NCBI RefSeq assembly: GCF_038039215.1
Contig: NZ_JBBPCL010000001.1
Span: 5,704,001 to 5,768,000, forward strand
Reading direction: 5' to 3'
From: Pseudonocardia sp. T1-2H
GTDB lineage: Bacteria; Actinomycetota; Actinomycetes; Mycobacteriales; Pseudonocardiaceae
DNA length: 64,000 bases
Shown: one piece after another, positions 19,682-48,437 of the stretch
Layout of the letters: every line of letters begins with the position of its first letter
Position numbering within the stretch: the first letter of the stretch is position 1
The notes under the pieces: model-generated
The model's database searches: none
What the model saw: only the letters and a program-made list of their open reading frames with translations
Told to the model about the DNA's origin: nothing
Program-made: the position numbers and the translations under genes

Positions 19682-22021
19682 ATGCACCTCACGTTGCCGC
19701 GCCCCGTCGTCCGGGCGCTGGTAAGGGCCACCGTCGCCCCCGTGCTGTCCCCCGGGTTCCCGTGGGCGCGCAGCGACGACTGCTCGACCTTTCCGGCCGG
19801 GTGCTCCCGCTCCCCCGTGGGACCCGGAGCACCGCGTCGTCCCTGGGTGGCGTCCCGTCCGTACGGGTCACCACTGCCGGGTCGACCGGCCCCCACGTCG
19901 TGCTGTTCCTGCACGGCGGCGGGTACACGACCGGTTCCCCGGCCTCGCACCTCGGGCTGGGCGCCGGCCTCGCCGAGGCGAGCGGCGCCCCCGTGCACCT
20001 GCTGCACTACCGGCGGGCACCGGAGCACCCGTACCCGGCCGCGGTCGACGACGCGCACGCCGCCTTCCGCGCACTGGTGGAAGCAGGACAAGCACCTCAA
20101 CGCATCGTCCTCGCCGGAGATTCCGCAGGCGCCGGGATCGCCGTGGCGCTGCTCCTCCGGCTGCGGGACGCCGGCGAGGAGCTGCCCGGCACCGTCGGCC
20201 TGATCTCGCCGTGGCTCGATCTCGACCTCACCGACCCCGCCGTCGCGGCGAACACGGGGCGGGACGCGATGCTCGACCCTCGCTGGCTCCGCCGGGCCGC
20301 CGTGGCCTACCGCGCGGGCAGCGACTCCCCGGGCCTGCGCCCGCTCGAGGCGGATCTGTCCGGGCTGCCGCCGCTGCACGTCGTCGCCGGGGCGGACGAG
20401 ATCCTGGTCGGGGACGCGGAACGGCTCGTCCGGGGTGTCACGGCCGCCGGTGGCCACGCCGACCTGCACGTCGCCCCCGGGATGTGGCACGACCACCTGG
20501 TCTTCGCCGGGCTCCTCGGTCAGGCCGCCGCGGACCTCCGCGCGCTCGGTGCGGCCCTGCGCGCCGACGTCGTGGCGCGGCGGCCGCGGGTCGCCGTCGT
20601 CGGGACGGGGTTCGGCGGGATCGGCATGGGCGCCGCGCTGCGCGCGGACGGCCTCGCCGACACCACCCTGTTCGAGAAGGCCGACGGCGTCGGCGGCGTC
20701 TGGCGGGACAACACCTACCCCGGTGCGGCGTGCGACGTCCCCTCGCACCTGTACTCGTACTCCTTCGCGCCCGGCCGCGAGTGGTCCCGGCGGTTCGCCC
20801 CGCAGCCGGACATCCTGCGCTACCTGCGCCGGGTCACCGCCGAGCACGGGCTCGAGCCGGACCTGCGGCTGCACACGGAGATCACGGAGGCCCGCTTCGA
20901 CGAGGAGCGCGCCGTGTGGCGGCTCGCCACGGGCGCCGGCGAGACCGTCGAGGCGGACGCCCTGGTCTCGGCCTGTGGTCAGCTCTCCCGACCCGCCGAG
21001 CCGGACCTCCCCGGGCTCGCGTCGTTCCGCGGCCCGGTGTTCCACTCCGCGCGCTGGGACCACGACGTCGACCTGCGGGGGAAGCGGGTCGCCGTCGTCG
21101 GGACCGGCGCCAGCGCGATCCAGTTCGTGCCCGCGATCGCCGGCGAGGTCGCGGCGCTGACCGTGTTCCAGCGCTCCGCGCCCTACCTGATCCCGAAGCC
21201 CGACCGCCGCTACGGCCCGCGCGCCCTGGCGCTGTTCCAGCGGTTCCCGATGTGGCGCACGGTGTCGCGCGGGTTCTGGGGTGCCTTCTTCGAGTTCGGG
21301 GCGCTGGGGCTCACGTCGGTCCGGGCCGCCGCCACCCCGTTCCGGCTCGCCTACGCCGCGCTCGTCCGCGCACAGCTCCCGGACCCGGAGCTCCGCGCCC
21401 GGGTCGAGCCGGACTACCCGGTGGGCTGCAAGCGGATCCTCATCTCGTCGGACTGGTTCCGCGCCCTGGCGAAACCCCATGTCGACGTGGAGACCGCCGC
21501 GATCGCCGAGGTCACGCCCGACGGCATCCGCACCGCCGACGGCGTCCTGCACCCGGCGGACGTGATCGTGTTCGGCACCGGCTTCCGCACCAACGACTTC
21601 CTGGCGCCGATGAAGGTGTTCGGCCGCGGCGGCGCGGAGCTTCTCCGAGCAGTGGCGCGACGGGGCCCGCGCCCACCTCGGGATCACCGTGCCCGGCTTC
21701 CCGAACCTGTTCCTGCTCTATGGCCCGAACACCAACGTGGGCTCGGGGTCGATCGTGCACATGCTGGAGTGCCAGATCCGGTACGTCCGCGAGGGCATCC
21801 GGCGGCTCGCGGCCGGTGTGCGCACCTTGGAGGTCCGGGAGGACGCCGCGACGGACTACGACGTCGAGATCCAGGACCGGCTCACCGGCAGCGTCTGGAC
21901 CGAGTGCTCCAGCTGGTACCGCGACGCCGAGGGCCGGATCGTGAACAACTGGCCCGGCACGATGACGGAGTACCGCCGCCGCACGCGGACCTTCGACGCG
22001 GAGAACTACCGCGCCGAGTAG
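19682..22021 (+). CDS. Alpha/beta-hydrolase fused to Baeyer-Villiger-type flavin monooxygenase (two frame breaks)
   Basis: After two corrections this encodes about 779 residues. The N-terminal esterase/lipase half has the oxyanion HGGGY, nucleophile GDSAGAG, Asp in ADEILVGD and His in MWHDHL (HSL-like). The C-terminal half has FAD motif VGTGFGGIGMG, GVGGVWRDNTYPGAACDVPS, the BVMO fingerprint FRGPVFHSARWD and NADPH motif GTGASAIQF. The pair could oxidise a ketone to an ester and then hydrolyse it. Frame breaks: one C too few at 19759-19761, and an in-frame CTT-C at 21640-21643 where skipping one base restores SEQWRDGARAHLGITVPGFPNL. ATG 19682 gives MHLTLPRPVVRALVRA. It may be a pseudogene, but other genes here show the same breaks. 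Confidence 0.8.
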
Positions 22022-22033
22022 GCCCGGAAACGA

Positions 22034-22082
22034 CGAACGGGGCCGAACACCGCCACGGGAGAGCGGTATCCGGCCCCGTTCG
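22034..22082. terminator. Bidirectional terminator between the monooxygenase and rpoC
   Basis: A 12-bp perfect stem (CGAACGGGGCCG / CGGCCCCGTTCG) encloses a second short stem. It lies 13 nt after the plus-strand stop and 60 nt after the rpoC stop, where convergent transcription must end. Confidence 0.75.
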
Positions 22083-22098
22083 GGACCTCGCCTTCGGC

Positions 22099-22130
22099 AT
22101 CGGGCCCCCTGCCGTCGCGGGGGGCCCGAT
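22099..22130. terminator. Second hairpin after rpoC
   Basis: An 11-bp perfect stem (ATCGGGCCCCC / GGGGGCCCGAT) lies 12 nt beyond the rpoC stop. Together with 22034-22082 it forms a tandem terminator. Confidence 0.65.
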
Positions 22131-22141
22131 CCGGCTACCGG

Positions 22142-26043
<3,902 letters not shown>

Positions 26044-26096
26044 TTAAATGTCCTCAGTTTCCCCGAAGAAATGAATTCGGTTGGTCGGCGGGCCGG

Positions 26097-29609
<3,513 letters not shown>

Positions 29610-29818
29610 GATGCGTCCTTCCGAGAACTACGCTCTCGTCTGGCGGGCACCGCCCCCGAAGCGCTACCGTCACCTCCGCCGCCACCGGATGCCGATTGCT
29701 CGGTGATCCGGGACGTGGACGTCCGGTGTTGCCGGGGAGCGGGACTCGCCGTTTATTGTCAGGGCGCGGACTCCGACCAGGCCCGGCGAGCACGATGGCG
29801 GACCTTCGGCACCGGCAG

Positions 29819-29848
29819 GGGTCCGTTGACCCTGGGAGGGTCGGACCC
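29819..29848 (-). promoter_or_regulatory. Leader hairpin of rpoB
   Basis: In the roughly 300-nt rpoB leader, GGGTCCG / CGGACCC arms enclose a competing GACCCT-GGG-AGGGTC stem. The two mutually exclusive foldings would suit an attenuator, but no U-tract follows. Confidence 0.35.
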
Positions 29849-29909
29849 TGACCGGCGGAATTTCCGACAGCGTGCACGCGGAACCTGGGCGGAGGCAGCG
29901 CAAAGAGGC

Positions 29910-29938
29910 AGTCTAGCCGCAAAAGCAGCCGCTGTCGA
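29910..29938 (-). promoter_or_regulatory. rpoBC promoter
   Basis: Minus strand: -35 TCGACA (29933-29938), a 17-bp spacer and -10 TAGACT (29910-29915). A second candidate upstream, TTGACT then CACTCT 17 nt later, lies near 29980-30010. The rest of the 29610-30369 interval holds no gene. On the plus strand a TTGACA at 30272-30277 may serve the cyclase gene, but it lacks a clear -10. Confidence 0.5.
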
Positions 29939-30369
29939 GACGGGTCACCGAGCCAAGCATGAAGGCAACCATCGAGACCCAAGAGTGACCTGACAGGCGC
30001 ACCGAGTCAAGACGCTACGCGTCGGTAAGTGGTCCCCCGTGGAGGACGACCGGCTACTCCGGGCGAGGAACGGCGACCGTCCGCCCGTCCGGCGTGGCGT
30101 CCGTCCGCTCCACCCGCCACCGGCGCGAGGTGAACGGTCCACCCGATCGAGGTCTCGCCCGCCGTAGGCGGCGAACGGAACCCGGGGTCGCTCCGACCTT
30201 ACCCGCAGCAGTCCGCGCCCCCGGCCCCCGGCCCCCGCCCCGTCGGTCTCCGGGCGGATCCCGCCCGGCGGTTGACACCCCCTCACACACGACACGACGA
30301 TCGACGCGTGCCAGGCAGCTGTCGCACGACGGCCGCGAGCACGCACCTCGCACGACAAGGGAGTCGACC

Positions 30370-31338
30370 ATGACCGAAGTCCCCGCCATGAAGGACCTGC
30401 TGGGCGCGGACGCCCCGAGCAACTGGGGCAAGTGGGGGCCCGACGACGAGCTGGGTTGCCTCAACTACCTCGACGCGGGCGAGGTGCTGCGCGGGGTGCG
30501 GCACATCAAGTCCGGCGAGGTCTTCACGCTGCAGATCCAGATGGGCCGCACGGACGGCCCCGGGGACCCGCTCTGGCCCGGCCGCGAGGGCATCCAGCGG
30601 CGGAACGAGCTCGACGAGAGCACCTGGGACGGCCCGGACGCCCCGGCCTTCCCGGGCGGGCTGCACTACGCCGACGACACCGCCCGGATCTTCCTGCAGG
30701 GCTCCACGCAGTACGACGCGCTCGGCCACGTCTGGTACGACGGCAAGCTGTGGAACGGCTACGACGCCCGCACCACGATCGGCGCGATGGAGAAGGCCTC
30801 GGTCCTGCCGATCGCCGAGAAGGGCATCGTCGGCCGCGGCGTGCTGATCGACATGGCCCGCCACCGCGGCAAGCAGTGGCTGGACAAGGGCGAGACCTTC
30901 GACCACACCGACCTCGAGGCCGCCGCGAAGAACCAGGGCGTCGAGATCGAGCCGCACGACGTCCTCGTCGTCCGCACCGGGTGGATGAAGTACTGGTACG
31001 AGCTCAACGACCCGAAGGCCTTCTACGACGGCTTCATCGAGCCGGGCCTGACGTACTCGCGCGAGCTGGTCGAGTGGTTCCAGCAGCGGGAGATCCCGAA
31101 CCTGGTCACCGACACCATCGCCAACGAGGTCACCTCCGACCCGAACTCGGGCGTGGCGCTGCCGCTGCACTGCGCGCTGATGCGCAACCTCGGCGTCACC
31201 CTCACCGAGATCGCCTGGCTCGACGACCTCGCCGACGCGTGCGCCGCCGACAACCGCTGGAGCTTCCTCTACGCCGCCGCCCCGCTCAAGGTCGTCAACG
31301 GCACCGGTGCGCCCGTCAACCCGCTCGCCATCCGCTGA
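30370..31338 (+). CDS. Cyclase-family (kynurenine-formamidase-like) metal-dependent hydrolase
   Basis: A 322-residue member of the putative cyclase family (PF04199). The metal-site region is QYDALGHVWYDGKLWNGYDA (about residues 116-135), followed by KGIVGRGVLIDMARHRGK and the ALPLHCALMRNLGV segment near residue 275. Relatives hydrolyse amides or cyclic esters; the substrate cannot be read from the sequence. The ATG follows AAGGGAG. The acyl-CoA ligase starts 14 nt after its stop, so the two are probably one operon acting on a shared carboxylate. Confidence 0.8.
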   Translation: MTEVPAMKDLLGADAPSNWGKWGPDDELGCLNYLDAGEVLRGVRHIKSGEVFTLQIQMGRTDGPGDPLWPGREGIQRRNELDESTWDGPDAPAFPGGLHYADDTARIFLQGSTQYDALGHVWYDGKLWNGYDARTTIGAMEKASVLPIAEKGIVGRGVLIDMARHRGKQWLDKGETFDHTDLEAAAKNQGVEIEPHDVLVVRTGWMKYWYELNDPKAFYDGFIEPGLTYSRELVEWFQQREIPNLVTDTIANEVTSDPNSGVALPLHCALMRNLGVTLTEIAWLDDLADACAADNRWSFLYAAAPLKVVNGTGAPVNPLAIR

Positions 31339-31351
31339 AAGGCCACCCCTT

Positions 31352-33004: not shown

Positions 33005-33063
33005 ACAGCTGTGCGCGGGAACCGCTGCTCCCGCTCCGCGGCGTGGAGCGTGGCGCCGGCACG

Positions 33064-33104
33064 CCGAAGGGGCGGGCACCCGGTCCGGGTGCCCGCCCCT
33101 TCGG
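33064..33104. terminator. Bidirectional terminator between the CoA ligase and rplL
   Basis: A perfect 20-bp inverted repeat with a 1-nt centre; its outer stem is CGAAGGGGCGGGCACC. It serves both converging units. The same 16-bp stem recurs at 59924-59960. Confidence 0.9.
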
Positions 33105-33126
33105 CGGTACTACGTGGTGCAGGCGA

Positions 33127-33514
33127 TCAGGCGAGGGAGACCTTCGCGCCGGCCTCCTCGAGCTTCGCCTTCGCGGCCTCGGCCGCGTCCTTGGCGACAC
33201 CCTCGAGGATCGGCTTCGGGGCCGACTCGACGAGGTCCTTGGCCTCCTTCAGGCCGAGGCCCGAGACCAGCTCGCGGACGACCTTGATGACCTGGATCTT
33301 CTTGTCACCGGCGGCGTCGAGGACGACGTTGAACTCGTCCTTCTCGGCCTCGGCCTCGGCCGGGGCACCGGCGGGGGCGGCGGCGGCGACGGCGACCGGG
33401 GCGGCCGCGGTGACGTCGAAGGTCTCCTCGAACTTCTTCACGAAGTCCGAGAAGCTCGATGAGGGTGAGCTCCTTGAACGCGTCGAGCAGCTCGTCGGTG
33501 GACAGCTTCGCCAT
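33127..33514 (-). CDS. rplL: 50S ribosomal protein L7/L12 (one frame break)
   Basis: The stalk protein that recruits translation GTPases, 128 residues after correction. The N-terminus [21 protein letters not shown] and the rest from [15 protein letters not shown] lie in different frames. The break is at codon CTT (33452-33454, minus) followed by C: skipping one base restores ELSDFVKKF and the canonical length. The Ala-rich hinge and the domain [41 protein letters not shown] are intact. L7/L12 is normally essential, so either the sequence has an extra base or the ribosome shifts +1 here. Confidence 0.95.
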
Positions 33515-33565
33515 GGTGGCGGTCCTTTCAGAGAAAACGTATGGGGGTGGAGCGGTGGTGCGGGA

Positions 33566-34144: not shown

Positions 34145-34194
34145 CGTCGGATGCCTCCTCTCGGGTGTCGGTACGTGCCACCGCTTCGGACCCG

Positions 34195-34232
34195 GGAAAA
34201 GACGAACGCCCCGCGCGCAGGGCACGGGGCGT
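34195..34232 (-). terminator. Attenuator-like hairpin in the rplJL leader
   Basis: On the minus strand an 8-bp stem (ACGCCCCG / CGGGGCGT, 34206-34232) is followed by TCGTCTTTTC. This is the most terminator-like U-rich tail I noted in the window. It lies about 60 nt before the rplJ start. A short GGTGCG/CGCACC hairpin precedes it at 34237-34253. Confidence 0.5.
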
Positions 34233-34411
34233 GAATCGGTGCGTGACGCACCGGCTGCTACCTCGTCCTCCTGCGCGGGCCGTCCGCTGTCGCGGACCTT
34301 CGTACACCGCCCGGGACTCCCGGAGCCGTGCAGACCTGCGGTCTTCGGTGGAACTGAGGTCGAGCATACGCGACGGGCGAGACCCCTCTCCGCGGGGCCC
34401 CGCACCGGACG

Positions 34412-35329: not shown

Positions 35330-35384
35330 GTCGGTGACCTCCTGGCTGTCGGTCGACCTCGGGGGCGGGCGGGGCGGTGTCTGC

Positions 35385-35948
35385 TCAGCCGCCGGAGCCC
35401 GGGGAGCGGATCGGGGCGAGCTTGCTGACCTTCCAACCCGCGTCGGTGCGGGTCATCTCGAGCTGCAGCCGCTGCCGGGTCTGGATCGGCGCCTGCCCGT
35501 CCGGGGTGACGGTGACGTCCACGCCGACCAGCACGCGCGCGACGCCCGCGCGGTCGTCGAGCTCGCCGACCGCGGCGTCGGACACGGTGGCCCGGGTCGT
35601 GCGCTTCGAGCTGACGACGAACTGCGAGTACTGCGCCCGGTTGGTGCGGAACTCCTCGAGCACCGGGCCGGTGGAGGACTGCTCCCACAGGTCGAGCCCC
35701 GGGTCCGGGTTGTGGAAGTCCAGCGTGTTCAGGTTGATCGCGGCCTGCCGGGCGTCGACGAGCACGGCGTCCCGCTCGGTGGCGAGACCGAGCGAGGCGT
35801 CGTTGCGCGCCGTCAGCCAGAGGACGCCGAACACCACCGCGGCGACCGCGGCGACGGCCGCCGCGACCTGCAGGGCCCGCCCGGCCGAGGGGCGAGCCCG
35901 AGCCGGGGGTTCGGGGGCGGCGGGGGGAGCGTCGTCCAGGACGGTCAT
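35385..35948 (-). CDS. Mce-associated membrane protein
   Basis: A 187-residue protein with a Pro/Ala-rich N-terminus, one transmembrane helix (ALQVAAAVAAVAAVVFGVLWL) and an extracytoplasmic domain ending GWKVSKLAPIR, the NTF2-like fold of Mas proteins. I chose ATG 35948 because GGAG lies 6 nt upstream; ATG 35960 is also possible. It follows mceF by about 50 nt and probably supports the transporter. Confidence 0.75.
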   Translation of the reverse strand: MTVLDDAPPAAPEPPARARPSAGRALQVAAAVAAVAAVVFGVLWLTARNDASLGLATERDAVLVDARQAAINLNTLDFHNPDPGLDLWEQSSTGPVLEEFRTNRAQYSQFVVSSKRTTRATVSDAAVGELDDRAGVARVLVGVDVTVTPDGQAPIQTRQRLQLEMTRTDAGWKVSKLAPIRSPGSGG

Positions 35949-35997
35949 CGGTGACTCCATCTCGGGCCGCGGGGGTCGGCCGTCGCGGGGGTTCGGG

Positions 35998-37234
35998 TCA
36001 GGCGAGCGACTGCAGGATCTGGGCCGGCGTCGCCAGGGGCACCGCGGACGTCGGGCCGGTGGGCGCCGTGCCGGACGGTAGCGGACCGGGTGTGGGGTCG
36101 ACGGTGGCGCCCCGGGCGGGCTTGGGGGTCGCGGAGTTCGGGGCGTTCTGCGCGCCGCGCACGGTCGTGGGGCTGCCCTTCGGCTCGGCGCAGTACGCGT
36201 CGGGGTTCACCTGGGTGTCCGCGAGCTCGTTGCCGGCCCGGTGCGGGGTGCCCTCGTAGCCGCGGGCGCACGGGAACGGGTCGAAGACGTTGAGGACCAG
36301 GCCGAGGTGGGCCGAGCCGTCCGCCGGCGCCGCCGTGTACCCGACGGCGGTGATGCCCGGGTACGTCGTCAGGATCTGCCGCAGGTTGTCCTGGCGGGGC
36401 TCCAGGATGCGGCTGACGGTGAGCAGGTTGGCGACGGTGTCGCCGAGGCCGCCGCCGCTCTCCCGCAGCAGCCCGCGGATCTGCTCACCGGCCTGCGGAG
36501 CCGTCGCGATCAGGTGCCGCAGGTCCGGGTCGGATTGCTTCAGCTGCGACGCAAGCTGCGCGAGGCTCGCGGAGAAGTCCTTGAACTGCCCGGAGACCTC
36601 GTTCTGCGTGGTCAGCACGGTCCGGCCGTCGCGGAGCAGCGCGGTGGTCTGCGGGAGCGCCTCGGTGGCGGCCCGGCTGAACTCGCTCGTGGTGTCGAGC
36701 AGCTTCTGCAGGGGCTCGCCGGTGTTCGAGAAACCCACCCCAAGCTGGTCGACGACGGTCCGCAGGCTGTCCAGCGGGACCGAGCGGACGAGTCCATCGA
36801 GGCTGACGACCAGGTCCTCCACCGGGACGGGGGTGCTCACGTTCGCCACCGGGATGACGGACCCGGCCTCCAGCTCGGCACCGGAGAAGCCGGGGCTGAA
36901 GGTCGACGTACTGCTCGCCGATCGCGGAGAGGTTCCGGACGGCGGCGTCGACGTCGGCGGGGATCTCCGGCGCGCTGCGCTCGATGTCCAGCTGCACGTC
37001 GACACCGTCGGTGGTGAGGGTCAGCGCGCCGACGCGGCCGACGCTCACGCCGCGGTAGGCGACGTCCGCGCCGGTGAAGATGCCGCCGGAGTCCGCCATC
37101 CGCATCGTCACCGGGTAGGTCGTCGCCCCGAAGATCGCGCCGAGGTTCGCATACCGGAAACCGACGTAGCCGACGCCGAGGACGGTGACGAGGGCCAGCG
37201 CCAGCAGCTGCAGGCGCACGGTGCGGGTGATCAC
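35998..37234 (-). CDS. mceF: MceF-type substrate-binding protein (one frame break)
   Basis: About 411 residues after correction. GTG 37234 gives VITRTVRLQLLALALVTVLGVGYVGFRYANLGAIFG, a transmembrane anchor followed by the MCE domain (YPVTMRMADSGGIFTGADVAYRGVSVGRV). The frame breaks at codon CTT (36899-36901) followed by C: skipping one base gives SAIGEQYVDLSPGFSGAELEAGSVIP and joins the helical half. A weaker alternative is one surplus C in the following CCCC. The Pro/Thr-rich C-terminus is extracytoplasmic. The start shares GTGA with the mceE stop. Confidence 0.85.
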
Positions 37235-38537
37235 GAGCCACCTCCGAGAAGACCGCCGAGCACGCCGCCGCCGGGCGCCGGGGTGGTCGTGGGAGCGGGT
37301 GTGGTCGTGGGCGCCGGCGGGGTCGTCGGCGGCGGGTTGCCCGCCGAGTGGCCGCCGGACGGCGTCGGGACGGGGCCGAGCAGCGGGAAGGCCGGCTGGT
37401 CCGGGCGACCGCCGAGCAGCGGGGAGAGCAGCTGCGCGGTGGCCGGCAGCTGGTTGAGGCCAGGGGTGTCCGGGCCGGGGAAGGGCTGGTTGGCGCGGGC
37501 CAGGTTGTCCAGCAGGTTCTTCAGGTCCAGGTCCGCGCGCACGTAGAGGTTCGCGTAGTCACCGGCGAACGCGTCGGTGGCGGCGTCGCTGAAGGGGAAG
37601 CTGCCGAGCAGCTGCAACGAGTCCGGGAGGTCCTGACCGGACTCGGCGAGCTTCTGCAGCGTCGGGCGCAGGGCCCGCAGATCCGCGACGGCGTCCTCCT
37701 GGCTGCGGTTCACCACGTTCGTCGCGACGCCGGAGAGCCGGTCCAGGGACTGCAGCATGTCCACGAGCTGGGTGCGCTGGCTCTCCAGCTCCCGCAGCCC
37801 GGGGCCGAGGTTGTCCAGGGCGTTCGCGATCTGCCCGTTCCGCTCGTTCAGCGTGGCGCCGAGCCGGTTGAGCCCGTCCAGGGCGCGGGTGATCTCGCCC
37901 TTGCGGTCGTCGAGCGCGCCGACCAGCGTGTCCAGGTTGTCCAGCAGCGAGCGGATCTCCGGGGCGCGGCCGTCGAGGGCGTTGTTCAGCTCGGTCGAGA
38001 TGGTCTTGATCTGGGCGACGCCGCCACCGTTGAGGAGCAGGGACAGCGAGCCGAACACCTCCTCGACCTCGACGCCGCGGCCTGCGCGGTCGATCGGGAT
38101 GGTCGCGCCGTCCGCCAGGGTCCCGGCGGCGCTGTTCCCCCGTTCACGGGAGCGGGCGCGGAGAGCTCGACGAACTTCTCCCCCAGCAGGCTCGTCGTGC
38201 GCACCCGGGCCTCGGCGTTCGCCGGGAGCGTCACGTCCCGGTTCACCGCGACGGTGACCATCGCGTTCCACGTCGCCGGGTCCACGGCGATCCCGGAGAC
38301 GGAGCCGACCGGGACGTCGGCGACCTTCACCAGGGACTGCGGCACGAGGTCGACGACGTCCGGGAACTGGATGGTCACCGTGTACGGGTCGTCGCCGAGA
38401 TCCGCGCCACCGGGGAGGGACACCCCGCGCAGGCCGCTGGAGAGCACGCCGCAGCCGCCGGTCAGCAGCGCGACCGTGGTGCCGAGGGCCAGCACCGACG
38501 CGACGCGGCGCGGGCGGGCGGTCCGAGGGCGGATCAC
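37231..38537 (-). CDS. mceE: MceE-type lipoprotein (one frame break)
   Basis: About 435 residues after correction. GTG 38537 opens a lipoprotein signal with lipobox LTGGC (VLALGTTVALLTGGCGVLSS), typical of the fifth Mce subunit. The MCE domain includes YTVTIQFPDVVDLVPQSLVKVADVPVGSV. A run of five G (38137-38141) should be six to join FVELSAPAPVNGG to NSAAGTLADGATIPIDRAGRG. The helical domain and a Pro/Thr/Gly tail follow. An intact GAGCTCTCC lies just before the break. The GTGA overlap with mceD couples translation. Confidence 0.85.
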
Positions 38538-39869
38538 GAGCCACCTCCGAAGAGCCGGGAGAAGAAGCCGCCACCGTCGTCGGCCGGGGCCGGCGGCGTG
38601 GTGGTCGGCGCGGGAGCGGCCGGCGCGGTGGTGGCGTTCTGCGGCACCGGGCCGGGCGTCGGCGTCGTCCCCGGGGCGGGGACGGTCGGCAGCGCCAGGC
38701 CCGGCACCGGGGGTGCCTGTCCTTGGGTCAGCGAGCTCAGGACCTGCGCGGCACTGGGGAGCGGCACCGCGCCGTCGAGCACCGGGGCCAACCCGGAACA
38801 GGTGTCCGCGACGGACCGGAACGGGGCCAGCTGCTCGGGCGTCGCCCGCTTCAGCTGGGTGCAGAGGGTGAGGATCGGCGGGTAGGACAGCTCGTTGATG
38901 TTCGCCCGGGTGTCCAGCGTCCCGGACGAGCCGTTGTAGCTGTTGGCGAGGTTGCCGAGACCCACCGGCGCGACGTCCAGGATCTCGGCCAGCGAGCGCT
39001 GCTGGTCCACGAGCACCTGGGTCACGTCGGTCAGCCGGTCCACGTTCGAGCGCAGGGTGTCGCGGTTGTCCCGGACGAAGGCGGAGACGTCGCCGAGCGC
39101 GACGCCGAGGTCCCGCAGCGCGCCGCCCAGGTTCTCCCGCTCCCCCGCGAGGAACCCGGTGACGTCGGAGACCCGGCCGTTGAACTCGCGGACCTGCGCG
39201 TCGTTCTGCGCGATGGTCTCGGTGAACTTCTGCAGCTCGGTGACGGTGCCGAAGAGGTCGTCGCTGGAGCCGGCGAGGGTGCCGGAGAGGCCACCGAGGT
39301 TCCGGATGGTGTCGTTGAGCGCCTGGCCGTTGCCGTCCAGGTTCTGCGCCGCGACGTCCAGGGCCTCCGACACCGCACCGGTCGAGTTGGCGCCCTGCGG
39401 GCCGAGCGCCCGGGAGAAGCTCGGTCGCGGTCCGGGAGAGGTCGTCCACCCCGAGCGGGACCGCGGTGCGCTCGAGCGGGATGGTCGCCCCGTCCGCCAG
39501 GGTCGGGGCGCCGGGGGCGGCGACCGGGAAGAGCTGCACATAGCGGCCGGTGACCAGGCTCGGCGAGACGACCGCGGCCTTGGCGTCGGACGCGAGCCGG
39601 ACGTCCGGACCCGTGAGGGTCATGTCGACCTTCACCTGGGTGCCCTCGGGGGTGATCGAGTCGACCCTCCCGACCGGGACACCCAGCACCCGGACGTCGT
39701 TGTCCTCGAACAGCGCCGAGGCGTTGGTGAAGTAGGCGGTGACCTTGCGGCCCCCGTTGTTCGTGACCAGCCAGATCGCGCTGGCCAGCAGGATCACGAT
39801 GACGGCCAGCAGCGCGAAGAGCTGCAGCTGACGACGGTCGTTGGACCAGGAACCCACCGGGAGCCTCAT
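38534..39869 (-). CDS. mceD: MceD-type substrate-binding protein (one frame break)
   Basis: About 444 residues after correction. The N-terminal anchor is QLQLFALLAVIVILLASAIWLVT; the MCE domain runs KVTAYFTNASALFEDNDVRVLGVPVGRVDSI. The frame breaks at GAG-CTT (39417-39419) followed by C: skipping one base gives LSRTATELSRALGPQGANS and joins the long helical domain. A Pro/Thr-rich tail ends FFSRLFGGGS. It lies 1 nt after mceC. Confidence 0.86.
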
Positions 39870-39870
39870 C

Positions 39871-40845
39871 TCAGCAGCCCCCCGGGTTGAGCGGGCCGAT
39901 GCTCGGGGTCGGGAGCAGGCCGCAGATGTAGTTGTCGAACCAGCGGCCGTTGCCCGTGGCGTTGGTGAACAGCCGCAGGAAGACGGCCTCGTTCCGCAGC
40001 GTCGCCGCGAGGTTGTCCTGGTTGCTCTGCAGCACCGCGGTGACGCGGTCCAGGGTCTCCAGCGTGGGCCGCAGCTGCTCGCTGTTGTCCGCGACCAGCC
40101 CGGAGAGCTGTGCCGAGAGCGACCGGGTGCCGGTCAGCAGCCGGTCGATCGCGTCCTTGCGCTGCTGCAGCTCGCCGAGCAGCAGGTTGCCGTCGGAGAG
40201 CAGCTTGTCGAACTCCCCCCGGCGGTTGGCGAGGATCGTCGAGAGGTTGCGGGAACCGGCGAGCAGCTGCTTGATCTGCGCGTCCCGGCTGGAGATCGTC
40301 GTGGAGAGCCGGGAGAGGCCGTCGAGCGTGCCGCGCACCTCCCCGGGGGTGTCCCGGAAGGTGTCCGCGAGGGTCCGCAGGCTCTCCGCGAGCTGGCCGG
40401 TGTCCAGCTGGTCGACGGTGCCGGACAGGCCGTTGAACGCCTCGACGACGTCGAACGGCGAGACCGTGCGGGTCCGCGGGATGGTCGTGTCCGGGTCCTG
40501 CTCCGCCTCGCCCTGCGGGTCCAGCGCCAGGTACTTGCTCCCGAGCAGGGTCGCGATCTGGATCGAGACGCCGCTGCGGTCGCCGACCCAGGCGTCGTCG
40601 ACGTGGAACGTGACGAGCACCTGGTCGCCGTCGAGCTCCACGCTGCGCACGCGGCCGACCTCGACACCGGCGACCGTCACGCGGTCGTCCGCCTGCAGTC
40701 CGGCGGCCTCGCCGAAGTAGGCCTTGTACGTGTCGCCGCCGCCGAAGAGCGCGGTTCCGTTGAACGCCACGAGCACGGCCACGAGGATCACCAGGATCCC
40801 GGTGATCGCGAGCGGGACCGGGCGGCGGGCTCCGGGGAGGGCCAT
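39871..40845 (-). CDS. mceC: MceC-type substrate-binding protein
   Basis: A 324-residue protein with anchor PLAITGILVILVAVLVAF, MCE domain YKAYFGEAAGLQADDRVTVAGVEVGRVRSVELDGDQV and a helical domain rich in Leu heptads (residues about 130-280). These domains assemble into a tunnel that carries lipid across the cell envelope in known Mce systems. It is intact and lacks a long Pro-rich tail. It lies 1 nt after mceB. Confidence 0.9.
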   Translation of the reverse strand: MALPGARRPVPLAITGILVILVAVLVAFNGTALFGGGDTYKAYFGEAAGLQADDRVTVAGVEVGRVRSVELDGDQVLVTFHVDDAWVGDRSGVSIQIATLLGSKYLALDPQGEAEQDPDTTIPRTRTVSPFDVVEAFNGLSGTVDQLDTGQLAESLRTLADTFRDTPGEVRGTLDGLSRLSTTISSRDAQIKQLLAGSRNLSTILANRRGEFDKLLSDGNLLLGELQQRKDAIDRLLTGTRSLSAQLSGLVADNSEQLRPTLETLDRVTAVLQSNQDNLAATLRNEAVFLRLFTNATGNGRWFDNYICGLLPTPSIGPLNPGGC

Positions 40846-40846
40846 C

Positions 40847-42028
40847 TCAGTTGCCTCCCGTTCCGAGGTCGCCGAAGAGCGGCAGGGCGGGAGCCCCCGC
40901 GGGCGGCTGCAACGGGTTCCGGCCCGAGACGAGCTGCTCGAGGGCCGGCGGGGGCGCCGGCAGCAGCGGGGACGGCTGCCCGTCGACGCCGTCCGGGTCC
41001 GTCCCGCAGCGCGGTGCGTCCGACTGCCAGAGCGGCAGCTCCTGCGCGGGAACCAGGTCCCCCACGCCGATCGAGCCGGAGAGCCCGCAGAGGTAGAACT
41101 GGAACCAGCTGCCGTAGCTCGCCGCCCGGGAGATCTTGTTCAGCTTGTACGGCGAGAACTCCAGGAAGTGCTCGAGCGTCGGCTTCGCCGCGTCCAGGTT
41201 CGACGAGAGCGCCCCGAGGGCGGCGATGTCGTCCTTGAGCGGCGGCCGGGCGTCCGCGAGGAACCCGGCGGTGACGTCGGTGAGCTCGCCGATGGACGCG
41301 ATCGCGTCCCCGATGGGCTGCCGGTCCTGCGACAGCCCGGACACGAGCTGCTGCAGGGAGACGATGAGGTCGTCGAGCTGCTGGTCGTGCGCGTCGAGGG
41401 TGCCGAGCACGCCGTTGAGGTTGTCGATCACCTGGCCGATGACCTGGTCCTTGTCCGCGATCGTGCTGGTGAGCGAGGCGGTGCTGGCGAGCAGGCTCTG
41501 CACCGTGCCGCCCTCTCCCTGCAGCGTCTGCACGATCTGCATCGAGAGCTGGTTGACCTGCTGCGGGTCCAGCGCCGTGAACAGCGGCTTGAACCCGTTG
41601 AACAGGGTGGTCAGGTTCAGCGGGGGCTTCGTGTGCTCGACGGGGATGGTGTCCCCCGCGGCGAGCGTCGCCCCGGTGGCACCGGCGCCCTGGCCGAGGG
41701 AGAGGAAGCGCTGCCCGATGAGGTTCTTGTAGAGCACCGCGGCGATGGCCGAGGCCGGCACCCGCAGGCTCGAGTCGACACTGAAGTCCACCTGGGCCAG
41801 GCGCCGGTCGACGATCTGGATCTTGTCCACGGCTCCGACGACGACGCCGGCGATCCGGACCTCGTCGCCGGTCAGCAGGCCGTTGACGTCGGTGAAGCGG
41901 GCGCTGTAGGTGGTCTTGTCGCCGCCCTGGCTGTTCGCGATGGTCAGCCCCAGCACCGTGGTGGCCAGCATCGTGACCAGCGCGAACACGCCGAACTTGA
42001 CGAGCGGTCCGATCGGGAGACGGCTCAT
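40847..42028 (-). CDS. mceB: MceB-type substrate-binding protein
   Basis: A 393-residue protein starting MSRLPIGPLVKFGVFALVTMLATTVLGLTIANS (anchor). The MCE domain is TYSARFTDVNGLLTGDEVRIAGVVVGAVDKI, followed by helical repeats and a Pro-rich tail. ATG 42028 overlaps the mceA stop by 4 nt (ATGA), which fixes the start. Intact. Confidence 0.9.
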   Translation of the reverse strand: MSRLPIGPLVKFGVFALVTMLATTVLGLTIANSQGGDKTTYSARFTDVNGLLTGDEVRIAGVVVGAVDKIQIVDRRLAQVDFSVDSSLRVPASAIAAVLYKNLIGQRFLSLGQGAGATGATLAAGDTIPVEHTKPPLNLTTLFNGFKPLFTALDPQQVNQLSMQIVQTLQGEGGTVQSLLASTASLTSTIADKDQVIGQVIDNLNGVLGTLDAHDQQLDDLIVSLQQLVSGLSQDRQPIGDAIASIGELTDVTAGFLADARPPLKDDIAALGALSSNLDAAKPTLEHFLEFSPYKLNKISRAASYGSWFQFYLCGLSGSIGVGDLVPAQELPLWQSDAPRCGTDPDGVDGQPSPLLPAPPPALEQLVSGRNPLQPPAGAPALPLFGDLGTGGN

Positions 42029-43425
42029 GTCAGGGTCACCTCCGCACCCCGGTAGAGCGGGCCGACGAGGACGCTGCCCCACTGCGGGACGTCCTGCGGC
42101 GAGCCGCCGTTCTGCGCCGACACGAGCTCGGCGACCATCTGCTGCTCACCGGGCGAGTTCGGGACGCCCATGTCGACGCCCCGCCACGCGGCCGGGGTCG
42201 CACCCGACGTCGGCTCGTTCTCGCGCGGGCCACCGCCGCGGATCAGGCCCCACGAGTTCGTGCCGTCGTAGGTGCCGAAGGTGTCCGCACCGAACGCCTC
42301 GGGGTCGCCGCGCGGGGTGCCCACCGGCGCGGGCGGCGGGACCGAGCCGTCCCGGAACGGGCCGTCCGGCGGGTACTGCGGCCCCGGGTCGACGATCGGG
42401 TAGCAGCGCGGGCCACGGTCGTCGGAGAACTCGGGCTCGTCCTGGTTCGGGACGTACTTGCCGTTGTTGGCGACGATCTCCAGCGTGATGTGGATGCCGG
42501 GCTGGTCCGTGCCCTTGCCGAACACCTGGTCGACGTTCGGGATGAGCCTGTTCATCTGCTGGAAGAAGCAGGGGAACTCCGGCGCGTAGCGGGCCAGGGT
42601 CTCCAGCGTCGGCCGGCTGCTGGCGGAGAGCTGGATCAGGTTCTCGCCGTTCGCGTCGAGGAAGGCCCGCAGGTCGTCCGACGCGCCGGTGACGGAGCGG
42701 TAGAGGTCGCGCAGCTCGTCCCGCTGCTCGACGATCGTCCGGCTCGTGGTCGTGAGGTCGTCGAGGGCGTTCAGCAGGTCCGGCGCGGCGTCGGAGAGGT
42801 TCTGCGAGAAGTCCGCGAGTTGGGTGATGTCCTCCTGCAGGTCCGGGAGGGACGGGTTCAGGCCCGCGGTCAGCGTGTTCAGCCGGACCAGGGTGTCCCC
42901 CAGCTCCTCGCCGCGGCCGGCGAGCGCCTGGGAGAGCGAGCCCAGCGTCGTCGACAGGTCCTGCGGCTTGACCGCCTGCAGCAGCGGGAGCAGGTCGTCG
43001 AGGACCCGCTCGACCTCCATCGCGCTCTGGCTGCGGTCCTCTCCGATGACGTCCCCGGCGCTGAGCCGGGCCGCGCCCGCCTGCACGGGCGGGACCAGCG
43101 ACACGAACTTCTCGCCGAACAGCGTCTTCGGCAGCAGCCGCGCCGAGACGTCCGCCGGGATCTGTCCGATGAGGTCCGGGTCCAGGCTCATCGACACGGT
43201 GGCGCCGGCGCCCTCCGTGCTGACCTCCTCCACCTTGCCGACGATCAGCCCGCGGATCTTGACGTCCGCCCGCTCGGCGAGCTGGTTGCCGACCCGGTCG
43301 ACCTTGAGCGTGACGGGCACGCCGGACTGGAACGCCCCGACGTACTTCGCGATCGAGAGCCCGATCAGCAGCGCGATGACGGCCAGGAACGCGAGGCCCT
43401 GGACGACCTTCTTCGTGGACGTCAT
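42025..43425 (-). CDS. mceA: MceA-type substrate-binding protein
   Basis: A 466-residue first Mce subunit. The anchor is VVQGLAFLAVIALLIGLSIA; the MCE domain is PVTLKVDRVGNQLAERADVKIRGLIVGKVEEV. FPCFFQQMNRLIPN in the helical/cholesterol-uptake-porter domain is typical of MceA, as is the long C-terminal tail with GTNSWGLIRGGGP. Its start overlaps the second yrbE stop by 4 nt. Confidence 0.9.
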   Translation of the reverse strand: MTSTKKVVQGLAFLAVIALLIGLSIAKYVGAFQSGVPVTLKVDRVGNQLAERADVKIRGLIVGKVEEVSTEGAGATVSMSLDPDLIGQIPADVSARLLPKTLFGEKFVSLVPPVQAGAARLSAGDVIGEDRSQSAMEVERVLDDLLPLLQAVKPQDLSTTLGSLSQALAGRGEELGDTLVRLNTLTAGLNPSLPDLQEDITQLADFSQNLSDAAPDLLNALDDLTTTSRTIVEQRDELRDLYRSVTGASDDLRAFLDANGENLIQLSASSRPTLETLARYAPEFPCFFQQMNRLIPNVDQVFGKGTDQPGIHITLEIVANNGKYVPNQDEPEFSDDRGPRCYPIVDPGPQYPPDGPFRDGSVPPPAPVGTPRGDPEAFGADTFGTYDGTNSWGLIRGGGPRENEPTSGATPAAWRGVDMGVPNSPGEQQMVAELVSAQNGGSPQDVPQWGSVLVGPLYRGAEVTLT

Positions 43426-44264
43426 CCCGCCACCCGCACCGAGGTCTCGGTCCCGTAGATCACCAGGGTCAGGAAGAAGTCCAGGATCGCCGTGCTCACG
43501 ATCGACAGCCGGACCGCGCGGCCCACGGCCACGCCGACGCCCGCCGGGCCGCCCTTGGCCGAGTAGCCGTAGTGGCAGTGGATCAGGATGACCACCGTCG
43601 CGAAGACGATGACCTTGAGATAGGAGTAGAGGATGTCGCTGACCGGCAGGAACAGGTCGAAGTAGTGGTCGTAGGTGCCACCCGGCAGCCCGTTCAGGAA
43701 GGTCACGTTGAGCCTGGACGCCGCGAAGCTCGACAGCAGGCCGATCGTGTACATCGGGATCACCGCGAGGATTCCGGCGATCACCCGGGTGGTCACCAGG
43801 AACGGCACGCTGGGCACCGCCATGACCTCGAGCGCGTCGATCTCCTCGGAGATCCGCATGGCGCCGAGCTGCGCGGTGAAGCCGGCGCCGAGCGTCGCGG
43901 TGAGCGCCGACGCCGCGACCAGCGGGGCGATGTCGCGGGTGTTGAAGTAGGCGGTGATGAAGCCGGTGAGGGCCTCGACGCCGAGTGAGTCCAGGGCCCG
44001 GAAGCCCTGCAGCCCGACGAGCGAGCCGACGAACAGCGACAGCGACGCCATGACGCCCGCGGTACCGAGGATGACGATCAGCGAGCCGGAGCCGAAGCTG
44101 ACCTCGGCCAGCAGCCGGGCGATCTCCTTGGGGTAGCGGCGCAGCGTGCGCGGGGTCCAGGCGATCGCCCGCGCGTAGAGCGAGAGCTGGTCCCCCAGCT
44201 GTTCGAGCTGGTCGACGGGGCCGCGGAGGGCGCGGCGGGCCCGGACGGAGAGCGGGGTGGCCAC
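43422..44264 (-). CDS. yrbEB: YrbE/MlaE-type permease, second copy
   Basis: A 280-residue integral membrane permease. Motifs: LQGFRALDSLGVEALTGFITAY, PLVAASALTATLGAGFTAQLGAMRISEEIDALEVMAVPS (coupling helix for the ATPase) and about five hydrophobic segments. It forms the heterodimeric membrane part of the Mce importer with the copy upstream, 1 nt away. Confidence 0.92.
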   Translation of the reverse strand: MATPLSVRARRALRGPVDQLEQLGDQLSLYARAIAWTPRTLRRYPKEIARLLAEVSFGSGSLIVILGTAGVMASLSLFVGSLVGLQGFRALDSLGVEALTGFITAYFNTRDIAPLVAASALTATLGAGFTAQLGAMRISEEIDALEVMAVPSVPFLVTTRVIAGILAVIPMYTIGLLSSFAASRLNVTFLNGLPGGTYDHYFDLFLPVSDILYSYLKVIVFATVVILIHCHYGYSAKGGPAGVGVAVGRAVRLSIVSTAILDFFLTLVIYGTETSVRVAG

Positions 44265-44265
44265 G

Positions 44266-45057
44266 TCAGATCCCCTTCGGCGGGACGATCTGGAGGTACA
44301 GGGCCGTCAGCACCAGGTTGATCATGAAGACCAGGACGAACGAGATGACGACGGACTGGTTCACCGCGTCCCCGACGCCCTTGGCGCCGGGCGGCGGGTT
44401 GAGCCCCCGGTAGGCGGCCACGACCCCGGCGGTGAAGCCGAACAGCACGGCCTTCAGCTCGCTGACGACGATGTCGGACACCTGGGCGATCGCGGAGAAG
44501 CTCGCGATGTAGGCACCGGGAGTACCGCCCTGGACGATCACGTTGAAGAAGTAGCCGCCCCCGACTCCGACGACCGTGGCCAGCCCGTTGAGCACCACCG
44601 CCGTCGTCGCCATGGCCAGCACGCGGGGCACCACCAGCCGCTGGATCGGCGAGATGCCCAGCACCTCCATGGCCGCGATCTCCTCGCGGATGGTGCGGGC
44701 ACCCAGGTCCGCGCACACGGCCGAACCACCGGCGCCGGAGATCAGCAGCGCGGTGACGATGGGCGCGGCCTGCTGCACGATCGCGAGCACGCTGCCCGCG
44801 CCGGTCTGGCTCTGCGCGCCGAACTGGCGGGTGAGCTCGCTGAGCAGCAGCGCGATCGTCGCGCCGAAGGGGATGGTGAACAGCGCGGTCGGCAGCGCGG
44901 AGACCTTGCAGACGAACCAGGTCTGCTCGATGTACTCGCGCAGCTGGAACGGCGGCTTGAAGGTCTGCCGGATGATGTCGACCATCAGCCCGAACATTCG
45001 CCCGACGGGGGTGAGGGCGCGTGTCACGGGACTGGGGCCGGCCTGGGGAGCGGTCAC
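44266..45057 (-). CDS. yrbEA: YrbE/MlaE-type permease, first copy
   Basis: A 263-residue permease. The family signature is PIVTALLISGAGGSAVCADLGARTIREEIAAMEVLGISPIQRLVVPRVLA, with TPGAYIASFSAIAQVSDIVVSELKAVLFG further on. Its start overlaps the stop of the ATPase gene by 4 nt (ATGA), so ATPase and permease are synthesised together. Confidence 0.92.
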   Translation of the reverse strand: MTAPQAGPSPVTRALTPVGRMFGLMVDIIRQTFKPPFQLREYIEQTWFVCKVSALPTALFTIPFGATIALLLSELTRQFGAQSQTGAGSVLAIVQQAAPIVTALLISGAGGSAVCADLGARTIREEIAAMEVLGISPIQRLVVPRVLAMATTAVVLNGLATVVGVGGGYFFNVIVQGGTPGAYIASFSAIAQVSDIVVSELKAVLFGFTAGVVAAYRGLNPPPGAKGVGDAVNQSVVISFVLVFMINLVLTALYLQIVPPKGI

Positions 45058-46211
45058 GGCGGTAGTCCTCGGGGAAGCTCAGCGGCTGTGGTGCCGGCCG
45101 GAGGGTGGCTCGAACAGGTTGTCGGGTCGGGGAAGGTCTCGGTGGGGGCGCCGTCGCCGGCGAAGCCGGAGTGCGGGGAGGCCGCCGGCTGGCCGTACGG
45201 GGAGGCGCCGGTGACCTGTTCGCGGGTGAGGGTCGTGCCGACCTGCTGCTCGCCGGAATAGGACTCCCGGATGGCGGCCTGGGCGGCGGGCGGGAGCGTG
45301 GGGAGCATCCGCATCACCCGCTCGCGGCGGCGGTGCACCGCCTTGCGGTCCGGGAGCCCGGCCGCCGCCTCGAGCTGCGGCTTGAGCGGCGGCAGCCCCT
45401 CCAGCTCGGTGACCTCGGCCATCTCCCGCGCCGCCTGCGCGGTGTCCTTCTCCTCCGACATCCCGATCGGGCCCTGCCGGCGACCGTTGAGGAACTGCGC
45501 CACCACCGGGTCGTCACTGGTCAGCAACACCTCGCGCGGCCCGAACATGGCCAACTGCTTGCGGTAGAGCATCCCGATGTTGTCCGGGACGGTCTGCGCG
45601 GTGTTGATGTCGTGGGTGACGATCAGGAACGTCGAGTCCGTCTGCGCGTTCAGGTCGATGATCAGCTGGTTCAGGTACGCCGTGCGCACCGGGTCCAGAC
45701 CCGAGTCCGGCTCGTCGAACAGGATGATCTCCGGGTCCAGCACCAGCGCCCGCGCCAGCCCGGCCCGCTTGCGCATCCCGCCGGAGATCTCGCCGGGGAG
45801 CTTGTTCTCGTCGCCCTTGAGGCCGACGAGGTCCATCTTCTCCATCACCACGTCGCGGATCTGCGCCTCGGACTTCTTCGTGTGCTCGCGCAGCGGGAAC
45901 GCGATGTTGTCGAACAGGTTCATCGACCCGAACAGCGCGCCGTCCTGGAACAACACCCCGAACAGCTTGCGCAGCTCGTAGAGCTTGGACTCGCTGCACC
46001 GAACCAGGTCGGTGTCGTGGATGACGATCGAGCCCTTCTCCGGCTTCAGCAGCCCGATCAGCGACTTGAGGAACACCGACTTCCCGGTACCCGACGGGCC
46101 CAGCAACACGCTGACCTCGCCCGGAGGGAGCGTCAGGGTGACATCCGACCAGATGTTGGCCCGACCGAAGGACTTCGTCAGCCCTTCGACCTTCACCTCG
46201 ACACCGGTCAC
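45054..46211 (-). CDS. mkl: Mce-linked ABC ATPase (Mkl/MlaF type)
   Basis: A 385-residue ATPase that powers Mce lipid import. Walker A GPSGTGKS (residues 38-45), signature ISGGMRKRAGLARAL, Walker B IILFDEPDSGLDP and switch His in VTHD are all intact. Residues after about 255 are an extended Mkl-type C-terminal tail. GTG 46211 has AAGGAGG upstream. In M. tuberculosis mkl is an orphan near rplL; here it heads a full yrbE-mce operon beside rplJL. Its upstream region has several symmetrical motifs (46248-46489). Confidence 0.92.
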   Translation of the reverse strand: MTGVEVKVEGLTKSFGRANIWSDVTLTLPPGEVSVLLGPSGTGKSVFLKSLIGLLKPEKGSIVIHDTDLVRCSESKLYELRKLFGVLFQDGALFGSMNLFDNIAFPLREHTKKSEAQIRDVVMEKMDLVGLKGDENKLPGEISGGMRKRAGLARALVLDPEIILFDEPDSGLDPVRTAYLNQLIIDLNAQTDSTFLIVTHDINTAQTVPDNIGMLYRKQLAMFGPREVLLTSDDPVVAQFLNGRRQGPIGMSEEKDTAQAAREMAEVTELEGLPPLKPQLEAAAGLPDRKAVHRRRERVMRMLPTLPPAAQAAIRESYSGEQQVGTTLTREQVTGASPYGQPAASPHSGFAGDGAPTETFPDPTTCSSHPPAGTTAAELPRGLPP

Positions 46212-46247
46212 GTCGCCTCCTTGCGCTCACCGATCCGCCGTGCCAGG

Positions 46248-46310
46248 AACCACACCGCGCGGAGCGCGGAAGGGTCCTGCATCACACAACGAGCAGCACG
46301 CAGTGTGGTT
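46248..46310 (-). promoter_or_regulatory. Long-range stem in the mkl leader
   Basis: On the minus strand AACCACACTGCG pairs with CGCGGTGTGGTT (12 bp including one G-U), enclosing 39 nt with an inner CTGC/GCAG stem. It ends about 37 nt before the mkl start. It may be a structured 5' leader or an operator. Confidence 0.4.
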
Positions 46311-46489
46311 ACCCATCAGTATTCCCGGCGCCTCGAACGGCTCTCCGCCGGGTTCACCGACACGGGAACGCCTAGTGACCATGGATGGCTCTCCGTGACG
46401 ATTTCGTCCGGACACTAGGCCGTATCGAGCACGGGACTGACCCGCTCGGAGGTACGAGCGGGCCAGTCCCGTCAGGTCGTGCATCACAC
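46274..46489. repeat. Direct and inverted repeats upstream of the Mce operon
   Basis: A 14-bp direct repeat GTC(C/G)TGCATCACAC occurs at 46274-46287 and 46476-46489. Between the copies an inverted repeat GCCTAGTG-N35-CACTAGGC spans 46370-46420. These are plausible binding sites for a regulator of the Mce operon; no regulator gene lies beside them. The interval 46212-46539 holds no gene. Confidence 0.45.
46432..46471 (-). terminator. Terminator after the MpaB-family gene
   Basis: An extended stem, CGGGACTG-A-CCCGCTCG with a 6-nt loop and CGAGCGGG-C-CAGTCCCG, lies 68 nt after the stop at 46540. It insulates the ADH-R2lox-MpaB unit from mkl. Confidence 0.7.
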
Positions 46490-46539
46490 CGCGTCCGTCG
46501 AATGTCACTCGATCGGAGCAGCATCCCGTGGCGGGGAAC

Positions 46540-47469
46540 TCAGCCGGCGGCCTCCGGAACCGCCTCGAGCCCCCGGGCCGCGTGCGGCACCGGGCAGCCG
46601 GCCGGGAAGGTGCCCAGCCGGTCCACCTCGTGGCCCTGCGGGTAGCTGCGGACCTGGGGCAGATCCCGGACGAGCTGCGGCTCCGTTCGCACCGGCATGT
46701 GCCGGACGACCTTCGCGCGCAGCCGCATCGCGAACCGGGACGCCTTCTCGAACGCCGCCGGGGGCGCGTCGTAGTGCAGGGCCCGGCGCAGCGGCGGGTC
46801 CATCAGCGCCCGGGAGAACGCGTTGATCAGGGCCTTCGGCGCCTTGTCGTTGGGCGGGAACGTGCACATCAGATCCAGTGTGGAGTCCGCGACGGCGCGG
46901 CCGCCGGCGTCGAACCCGAAGTGCACGTTCTCGTACTCGTCGAGCGCGGCGCCGAACTCCTGCCACGTCGCCGGGATGTCCTTGATGCCCATGTGCTTAC
47001 CGAGCTCGCGGTAGTAGTTCGCGCTCGCGACCTTCTCGGTCTCGGTGAACGGGCGCCAGCCGAACTCCTCCATCCACCGCAGCGGGACGACGACGAACGT
47101 GCACAGCACGTACCGCAGGTCGTCGTTCGTGATCGGGTAGCTGCGGTGCATCTGGTTCATCCGGCGGATCGCCGCGCGTCCGGTCTCGTGCGCGAAGCCG
47201 TGCTCCAGCACCGCCTCGAGGATCAGCCCGGTGTCGTCGTAGCGCTTCTGCACCCGCTCGGTGAACTCGCCGGTCTCCGCGAGCAGCCGCCCGATGCTCG
47301 GCACCGCGTAGGTGCGGAACAGTGCGAACCCGAGGGACTGGTTCATGTCCCAGGGGAACTCGTACATCGTGGTCAGCCGGTAGATCTCGTGGAAGTCGGC
47401 TTCCGGGTCCAGACGCTCGATCTCCGCGCGCCGGTCGAAGCGACCGGCGCGGTCGGGCAGGAGTCCCAC
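46540..47469 (-). CDS. MpaB-family oxygenase (DUF2236)
   Basis: A 309-residue member of the MpaB/latex-clearing-protein catalytic family, heme-containing oxygenases that cleave terpenoid or polyisoprene chains in characterised cases. Visible features include FALFRTYAVPSIGRLLAETGEF, LEHGFAHETGRAAIRRMNQMHRSYPITNDDLRYVLCTFVVVPLRWMEEFGWRPFTETEKVASANYY (conserved His and Arg), and DPPLRRAL. GTG 47469 lies 4 nt after the R2lox stop, so it is coupled to that gene. The substrate is unknown; a lipid or terpenoid is likely from the family and the neighbouring lipid genes. Confidence 0.8.
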   Translation of the reverse strand: MGLLPDRAGRFDRRAEIERLDPEADFHEIYRLTTMYEFPWDMNQSLGFALFRTYAVPSIGRLLAETGEFTERVQKRYDDTGLILEAVLEHGFAHETGRAAIRRMNQMHRSYPITNDDLRYVLCTFVVVPLRWMEEFGWRPFTETEKVASANYYRELGKHMGIKDIPATWQEFGAALDEYENVHFGFDAGGRAVADSTLDLMCTFPPNDKAPKALINAFSRALMDPPLRRALHYDAPPAAFEKASRFAMRLRAKVVRHMPVRTEPQLVRDLPQVRSYPQGHEVDRLGTFPAGCPVPHAARGLEAVPEAAG

Positions 47470-47473
47470 GAGC

Positions 47474-48437
47474 TCAGCTCGCGGTCGCCAGCACGCGCTG
47501 GTCCTCGGCGTGGAACCGCTCCTCCAACGCCTCCGGGGACGCGTCGACGTCGATCGTCAGGAGATCGGCACCCCGCGCGGACTCGATCGCGCCGAGCCGG
47601 CGGCCGAGCTTGTCCATGGCGTACTCGGCCATCTCGGAGATGTCGACGGCGAACGGCGGGTCCTCGCCGTCGTACTTGTCGAACGTCGCCGTGACGACGC
47701 CCATCGCCGGGACCATCAGCTCCTGCATCCGCTCGTCCACGACGTCGAACATCGAGTCGTCGGCGGCGACGTGGCGGCGGCAGGTGAACGTCCCCCAGGC
47801 CATGTGGCGGCGCTCGTCGTCCCCGATGTACTTGATCACCTGCTGGATGCCGGGCAGGATCCCGCGGCTGGAACAGACCTTCTGCCAGGCGAAGTAGCCG
47901 GTCAGCGCCAGGGTGCCCTCGACGATGTGGTTGTAGGTCACCGACGCCCGGATCTGGTTGCGCGGCGACGGGTCCTGCGCCAGGGCGTAGAGGCTGTCCG
48001 GGAAGCTCCTTGGTGAAGATCTCCATGTACGAGTCGTTGAACTCGATGTACTCGTGGAGGTCCCCGGTCATCCCGATGGCGTCGAACCAGAGCCGGAAGG
48101 CCTGCGTGTGCTTGGCCTCCTCGTAGAGGAACTGGGTCAGGTACATCTCGTCCGCGAACCGGCCCTCGGCGGCCATCGCGGCGACGAACGGCTGCAGGTC
48201 CTGGGTCACGGACTCCTCGCCGGCGAGGAACTGGGCGGCGAGCGCGCAGGTCCACCAGCGCTCGTCGTCCGTCATGGCCGCGAAGTCCTTCGCGTCCTGG
48301 GAGAAGTCGATGTCCGCGGGGTTCCAGTGGCGCGCGTTGCCCTTGGTGAACAGGCGCATCGGGAAGGAGTCGTGCTTGATCCCACCCTCGCCCAGGGACG
48401 CGAACCCGTTCCGCTTGCCGTGCTCGATCGTGCGCAT
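47474..48437 (-). CDS. R2-like ligand-binding oxidase, R2lox (one frame break)
   Basis: About 320 residues after correction; homologous to M. tuberculosis Rv0233. Ligands for the Mn/Fe site are seen in AGEESV (Glu74; Val77 of the Tyr-Val cross-link), [16 protein letters not shown] (cross-link Tyr and Glu) and DDERRHMAWG. The reading frame breaks at GAG-CTT (48003-48005) followed by C: skipping one base gives [34 protein letters not shown] as in homologues. AAGGAG precedes ATG 48437. R2lox is a proposed two-electron oxidase of bound lipid-like ligands, not a ribonucleotide reductase. Confidence 0.9.

Follow-up and report, generated by a model that had tools for sequence, protein, structure and literature searches.

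The window, which is the whole 64,000-base stretch of DNA that was analysed, corresponds to C1:5704001-5768000 of the Pseudonocardia sp. T1-2H genome, an assembly of 6,998,239 bases (about 7.0 Mb) in three contigs with a completeness of 96.22%. Pseudonocardia is an environmental genus. The nearest of the 60 relatives searched is G026, which is 98% identical over the rpoB stretch and approximately 95% identical across 264 kb outside this stretch. The mce genes of the window belong to the MCE family and adjoin MlaE- and MlaF-like genes. A frame-model event at 45076 was rejected as a gene break; it is the junction of the MlaE- and MlaF-like genes. Matches to mceE were found at six loci, five in Pseudonocardia and one in a distant actinomycete MAG (25% identity). 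An Rfam search of the window returned three tRNAs and nothing else. In the wider genome, a stretch of about 44 bases (L026:147-200) recurs around the chromosome on both strands, in many places in C1 (47/62 matches), and is perhaps a dispersed palindromic element.

Four genes in the window change frame at an in-frame GAG-CTT-C. The first-pass annotation had described five identical +1 breaks at CTT-C; all five of its four-base strings lie where it placed them, and the breaks in the monooxygenase, rplL, mceD and R2lox genes are real, while the one in mceF was misplaced. The frames were compared using open frames from 11 relatives' loci aligned to the window. The motif GAGCTTC at 21637..21643 (+) interrupts a fused esterase/Baeyer-Villiger monooxygenase gene, in which the frame model places the break at 21642. 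This gene is covered by no relative's frame, and the support comes from the frame model and from two pieces searched separately: the front piece matches Baeyer-Villiger monooxygenases (approximately 540 residues) as far as residue 264 or so, and the same proteins are matched by the rear piece from residue 402-437. The region 19630-21639 (+) is a single open frame in which an alpha/beta hydrolase (hormone-sensitive-lipase-like) is joined to the Baeyer-Villiger-type monooxygenase, an esterase-monooxygenase fusion.

The other three sites are on the minus strand and are each supported by the sequence, the frame model and the relatives' frames, and for mceD and R2lox also by separate searches with the pieces. 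The motif in rplL (ribosomal protein L7/L12) is at 33451..33457, and three relatives match in two frames with a junction at 33452/33450. The longer piece is recognized as L12, the other piece has 25 residues and matches no model, and no repeats were found at this site (33400-33500 searched). The motif in mceD is at 39416..39422, where the matches to L002 and L003 run in two frames and overlap at 39393-39415. In the gene for an R2-like ligand-binding oxidase (R2lox) the motif is at 48002..48008; the matches of six loci fall in two frames, which meet or overlap around 48000-48010 (in L004 the overlap extends down to 47970). The codon after CTT at the four sites is CTC or CCC and never a stop. 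In the aligned relatives the orthologues occupy one open frame (rplL in three loci, R2lox in six, mceD in two).

Three other breaks on the minus strand fall away from the motif. The CTT-C in mceF at 36898-36901 is read in frame, and in four of four relatives aligned the frame changes 5-16 bases downstream, at 36882..36893, which is not a GAGCTTC site. GEQYVDLQP is still in the upstream frame in the alignments of all four, which follow that frame as far as 36893 (36890 for L002) and take up the downstream frame at 36885 or 36882. The length difference at this break is of another size than at the four valid sites, and the motif does not explain it. The first-pass annotation missed two further breaks, neither of which falls at a CTT-C. 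The gene rpoC (22145-26043) is split into two frames at 22982..23012, with the frame model placing the change at about 23006 and the pieces matching the 1147-position rpoC model over positions 2-918 and 929-1146. A probable break in mceE lies beside a G run at 38121..38143; the frame model places it at 38143, and one relative (L002) matches in two frames that meet at 38121-38136. The gene mceE had been cited as a control in which GAGCTCTCC is intact; the probable break, at about 38130, lies approximately 20 bases past GAGCTCTCC.

The genome's own long open reading frames were used to train a hidden Markov model of the coding frame, which was run over 1.254 Mb of the genome in six blocks that include the window. 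It called 88 frame changes of the insertion type and 248 of the deletion type. A start-stop overlap motif lies near 138 of the 248 deletion-type changes, which look like ordinary gene overlaps. Once all events lying about 13 bases or less from a stop triplet were removed, 48 insertion-type and 89 deletion-type events remained. GAGCTTC or its complement is present at 25 of the 48 insertion-type events compared to 20 of 4498 random coding positions (Fisher p = 5e-41). When all events are counted, insertion-type breaks are present at 31 of 270 GAGCTTC sites (22 in sense and 9 in antisense); two of the 31 (369283 and 398784) are next to stop codons and could be gene junctions. A G/C run of at least five is found at 18 of the 89 filtered deletion-type events, compared to 165 of the 4498 background positions.

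The scan over the 1.254 Mb also shows that the unit is not CTT-C, contrary to what was first proposed. Breaks are enriched at in-frame GAG-CTT-C, where 20 of 39 sites are broken and 17 show no frame change, while other CTT-C sites in the coding DNA scanned are nearly always read in frame (3 broken of 166). When no C follows, 1 of 97 other CTT codons and 0 of 13 GAG-CTT are broken. CTT is a rare codon in this genome (315 of 359,594 coding codons). Fifteen three-base prefixes were tried before CTTC-YC; GAG is broken at 24 of 89 sites, GGG at 1 of 37 and TGG at 1 of 6, and the remaining 12 have zero breaks. The unit is instead the palindromic hexamer GAGCTC followed by YC. In the 264 kb alignment with G026, the relative has 27 GAGCTC sites followed by CC, of which 6 are GAGCTTC in T1-2H, 16 are unchanged and 5 are otherwise different; for GAGCTC followed by TC these numbers are 1, 5 and 2.

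The motif breaks do not depend on the strand of the gene. Since GAGCTC is a palindrome, a fault at the level of the DNA or the reads would be indifferent to gene direction, whereas a ribosome would not. For motifs followed by CCG or TCC, broken longer-form sites were set against unbroken shorter-form sites. The broken fraction is 17/50 in sense (17 against 33 unbroken) and 8/23 in antisense (8 against 15; Fisher p = 1.0), a comparison that uses 73 of 109 sites and leaves out 24 unbroken longer-form coding sites (6 sense, 18 antisense), 11 sites that are not clearly coding and one with a deletion-type event. The excess of sense sites among all broken sites (22 to 9) results from there being about twice as many such sites in sense. 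The same comparison can serve more widely as an inexpensive test: frame breaks that are as frequent with their motif antisense to the gene as with it in sense cannot be translational.

The model trained on T1-2H was also applied as a control to 751 kb of four congeners (G026, G034, G017 and G031). None of their 18 GAGCTTC-YC sites is broken, compared to the 31 motif breaks in 1.254 Mb of T1-2H. Insertion-type events without a stop number 6 in the 751 kb against 48 in the 1.254 Mb. Deletion-type events without a stop are a less distinctive class (36 against 89), with 2 in the congeners and 18 in T1-2H at G/C runs of five or more. The T1-2H genome has 78 copies of GAGCTTCCCGG, while each of 40 other genomes has 5-29, and it has 106 copies of GAGCTCCCGG. 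The longer form makes up 42% of sites in T1-2H, compared to 13% in 24 congeners pooled and no more than 23% in any one of them. This share is meaningful within the genus alone, since both forms are rare in some of the 16 genomes of other genera excluded from it, some of which equal or exceed the T1-2H value (8/15 in G045 and 10/21 in G039). The rRNA operons were tried as a non-coding control and gave no test because the loci in T1-2H and G017 share a natural GAGCTTCCC site.

One reading offered for these breaks was that the ribosome shifts +1 at CUU-C, by P-site slippage or a four-base-reading tRNA, and so restores the proteins. At the four sites the conserved protein does go on in frame +1 past an in-frame CTT, as such a shift would produce, and the rarity of CTT also fits. 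However, the mRNA at antisense sites reads GAAGCTC and has no CUU-C, and these sites break at the same rate; therefore, ribosomes cannot be the cause. CTT-C outside of GAG is read in frame at 163 of 166 sites, 17 of 39 GAG-CTT-C sites need no shift, and the four congeners have no motif breaks. The candidate was also rejected as a programmed +1 frameshift: the signal is not confined to the sense strand, no stop codon follows the slippery codon, and the frame change is not conserved among the orthologues of rplL, R2lox and mceD. Ribosomal shifting is thus refuted as a general explanation, in agreement with the first-pass annotation, which had leaned away from obligate recoding, and a false case of widespread recoding is removed. 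Another possibility is that the longer sites are real DNA and that a mutational hot spot at GAGCTC-YC broke many genes of this strain. A DNA fault would likewise be independent of gene direction, but it implies a living cell with a broken rplL and, if the other breaks are counted too, a broken rpoC; it would also have struck about a third of one class of site genome-wide, and it has left no trace in any congener. A hot spot is therefore very improbable.

The breaks are almost certainly systematic consensus errors of the assembly at GAGCTC-YC, most likely from long (nanopore-type) reads. A sequence-specific misreading had also been suggested at the outset, and the motif, its genome-wide excess, the strand symmetry and the absence from congeners support it. 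On this view it is the reads that are at fault, the DNA itself being sound: of the sites at which the chromosome most likely has GAGCTC-YC (Y being a pyrimidine), about a third would appear in the assembly as the longer GAGCTTC, irrespective of strand and gene direction. The deletion-type events at G/C runs are a second class typical of long reads and, together with breaks in both rplL and rpoC, essential genes struck at once, point to an unpolished long-read assembly. The proposed cause is a base modification at GAGCTC on which the basecaller was not trained, in which case all reads would agree on the same wrong call. Against this account, only about a third of the motif sites are affected and YC is needed, a requirement that a simple hexamer methylase would leave unexplained. 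It is also possible, if somewhat short of an even chance, that the error is real and needs no modification, with the basecaller or polisher simply mishandling the GAGCTC-YC signal. The dependence on the following YC in addition to the palindrome favors this; on the other hand, the palindromic core suggests a methylase site, and a plain basecaller fault would be expected in assemblies made alike, whereas the 24 congeners (some in 1-6 contigs, and possibly from other platforms) have no raised longer-form share. With either cause, the phenomenon is of an ordinary kind, a sequence-specific assembly error that might still be of some use as the footprint of a modification. Genes that look broken at GAGCTTC or at G/C runs in this assembly, the essential rplL and rpoC among them, should be treated with distrust.

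A methylase that could be considered for such a modification is found in a Druantia-like locus at C1:1587218-1594428 of T1-2H (L136:11218-18428). The locus encodes an MTaX1 protein, a DruM2-like C5-methylase, a Vsr protein and a DruE2-like protein of 1441 residues. The DruE2 stretch departs from the coding model of the genome, a hint of foreign origin. Two methylase families were searched in the genome; the single C5-cytosine methylase (PF00145) found is the one in this locus, and there was no match to PF01555. A SacI-type endonuclease (PF09566) had no match in T1-2H or in the controls, so that search is uninformative. It is doubtful, but conceivable, that the error footprint is a readout of GAGCTC modification by the DruM2-like C5-cytosine methylase of this locus (C1:1,587-1,594 kb). 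If true, the footprint would give the recognition site of this methylase.

Three known systems can be compared with these breaks. In the cited passages on prfB, an in-frame CTT also precedes the frame change, and the shift site, which is shared between species, combines CTTT with a stop codon and a Shine-Dalgarno-like stretch upstream (PMC12421855, PMC3711429); unlike prfB, the next codon in T1-2H is a non-stop codon and the same breaks also occur antisense to genes. The cited part of a Listeria study describes nanopore errors that are bound to the motifs GCAGC and GCTGG and arise from untrained modifications (PMC10687267). The T1-2H breaks resemble these in being tied to a short motif, strain-specific, genome-wide and able to survive consensus. 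The Listeria errors counted there are mismatches, whereas a base is added in T1-2H, and they were traced with demodified DNA, whereas the present case is built from sequence evidence. In Propionibacterium freudenreichii, the cited portion of the report gives 5mC at GRGCYC, a motif that includes GAGCTC, and native ONT assemblies that differ from the reference by 114-126 bases in two GRGCYC-modified strains and by 2 in an unmodified one (PMC11649196); the modification may be the cause of these differences. A footprint spanning the whole of GRGCYC is unsupported in T1-2H; GGGCTTC-YC is not hot, so the footprint falls short of the full GRGCYC. The likeness to P. freudenreichii, as far as that portion goes, is that a modified motif covers GAGCTC in a high-GC actinobacterium.
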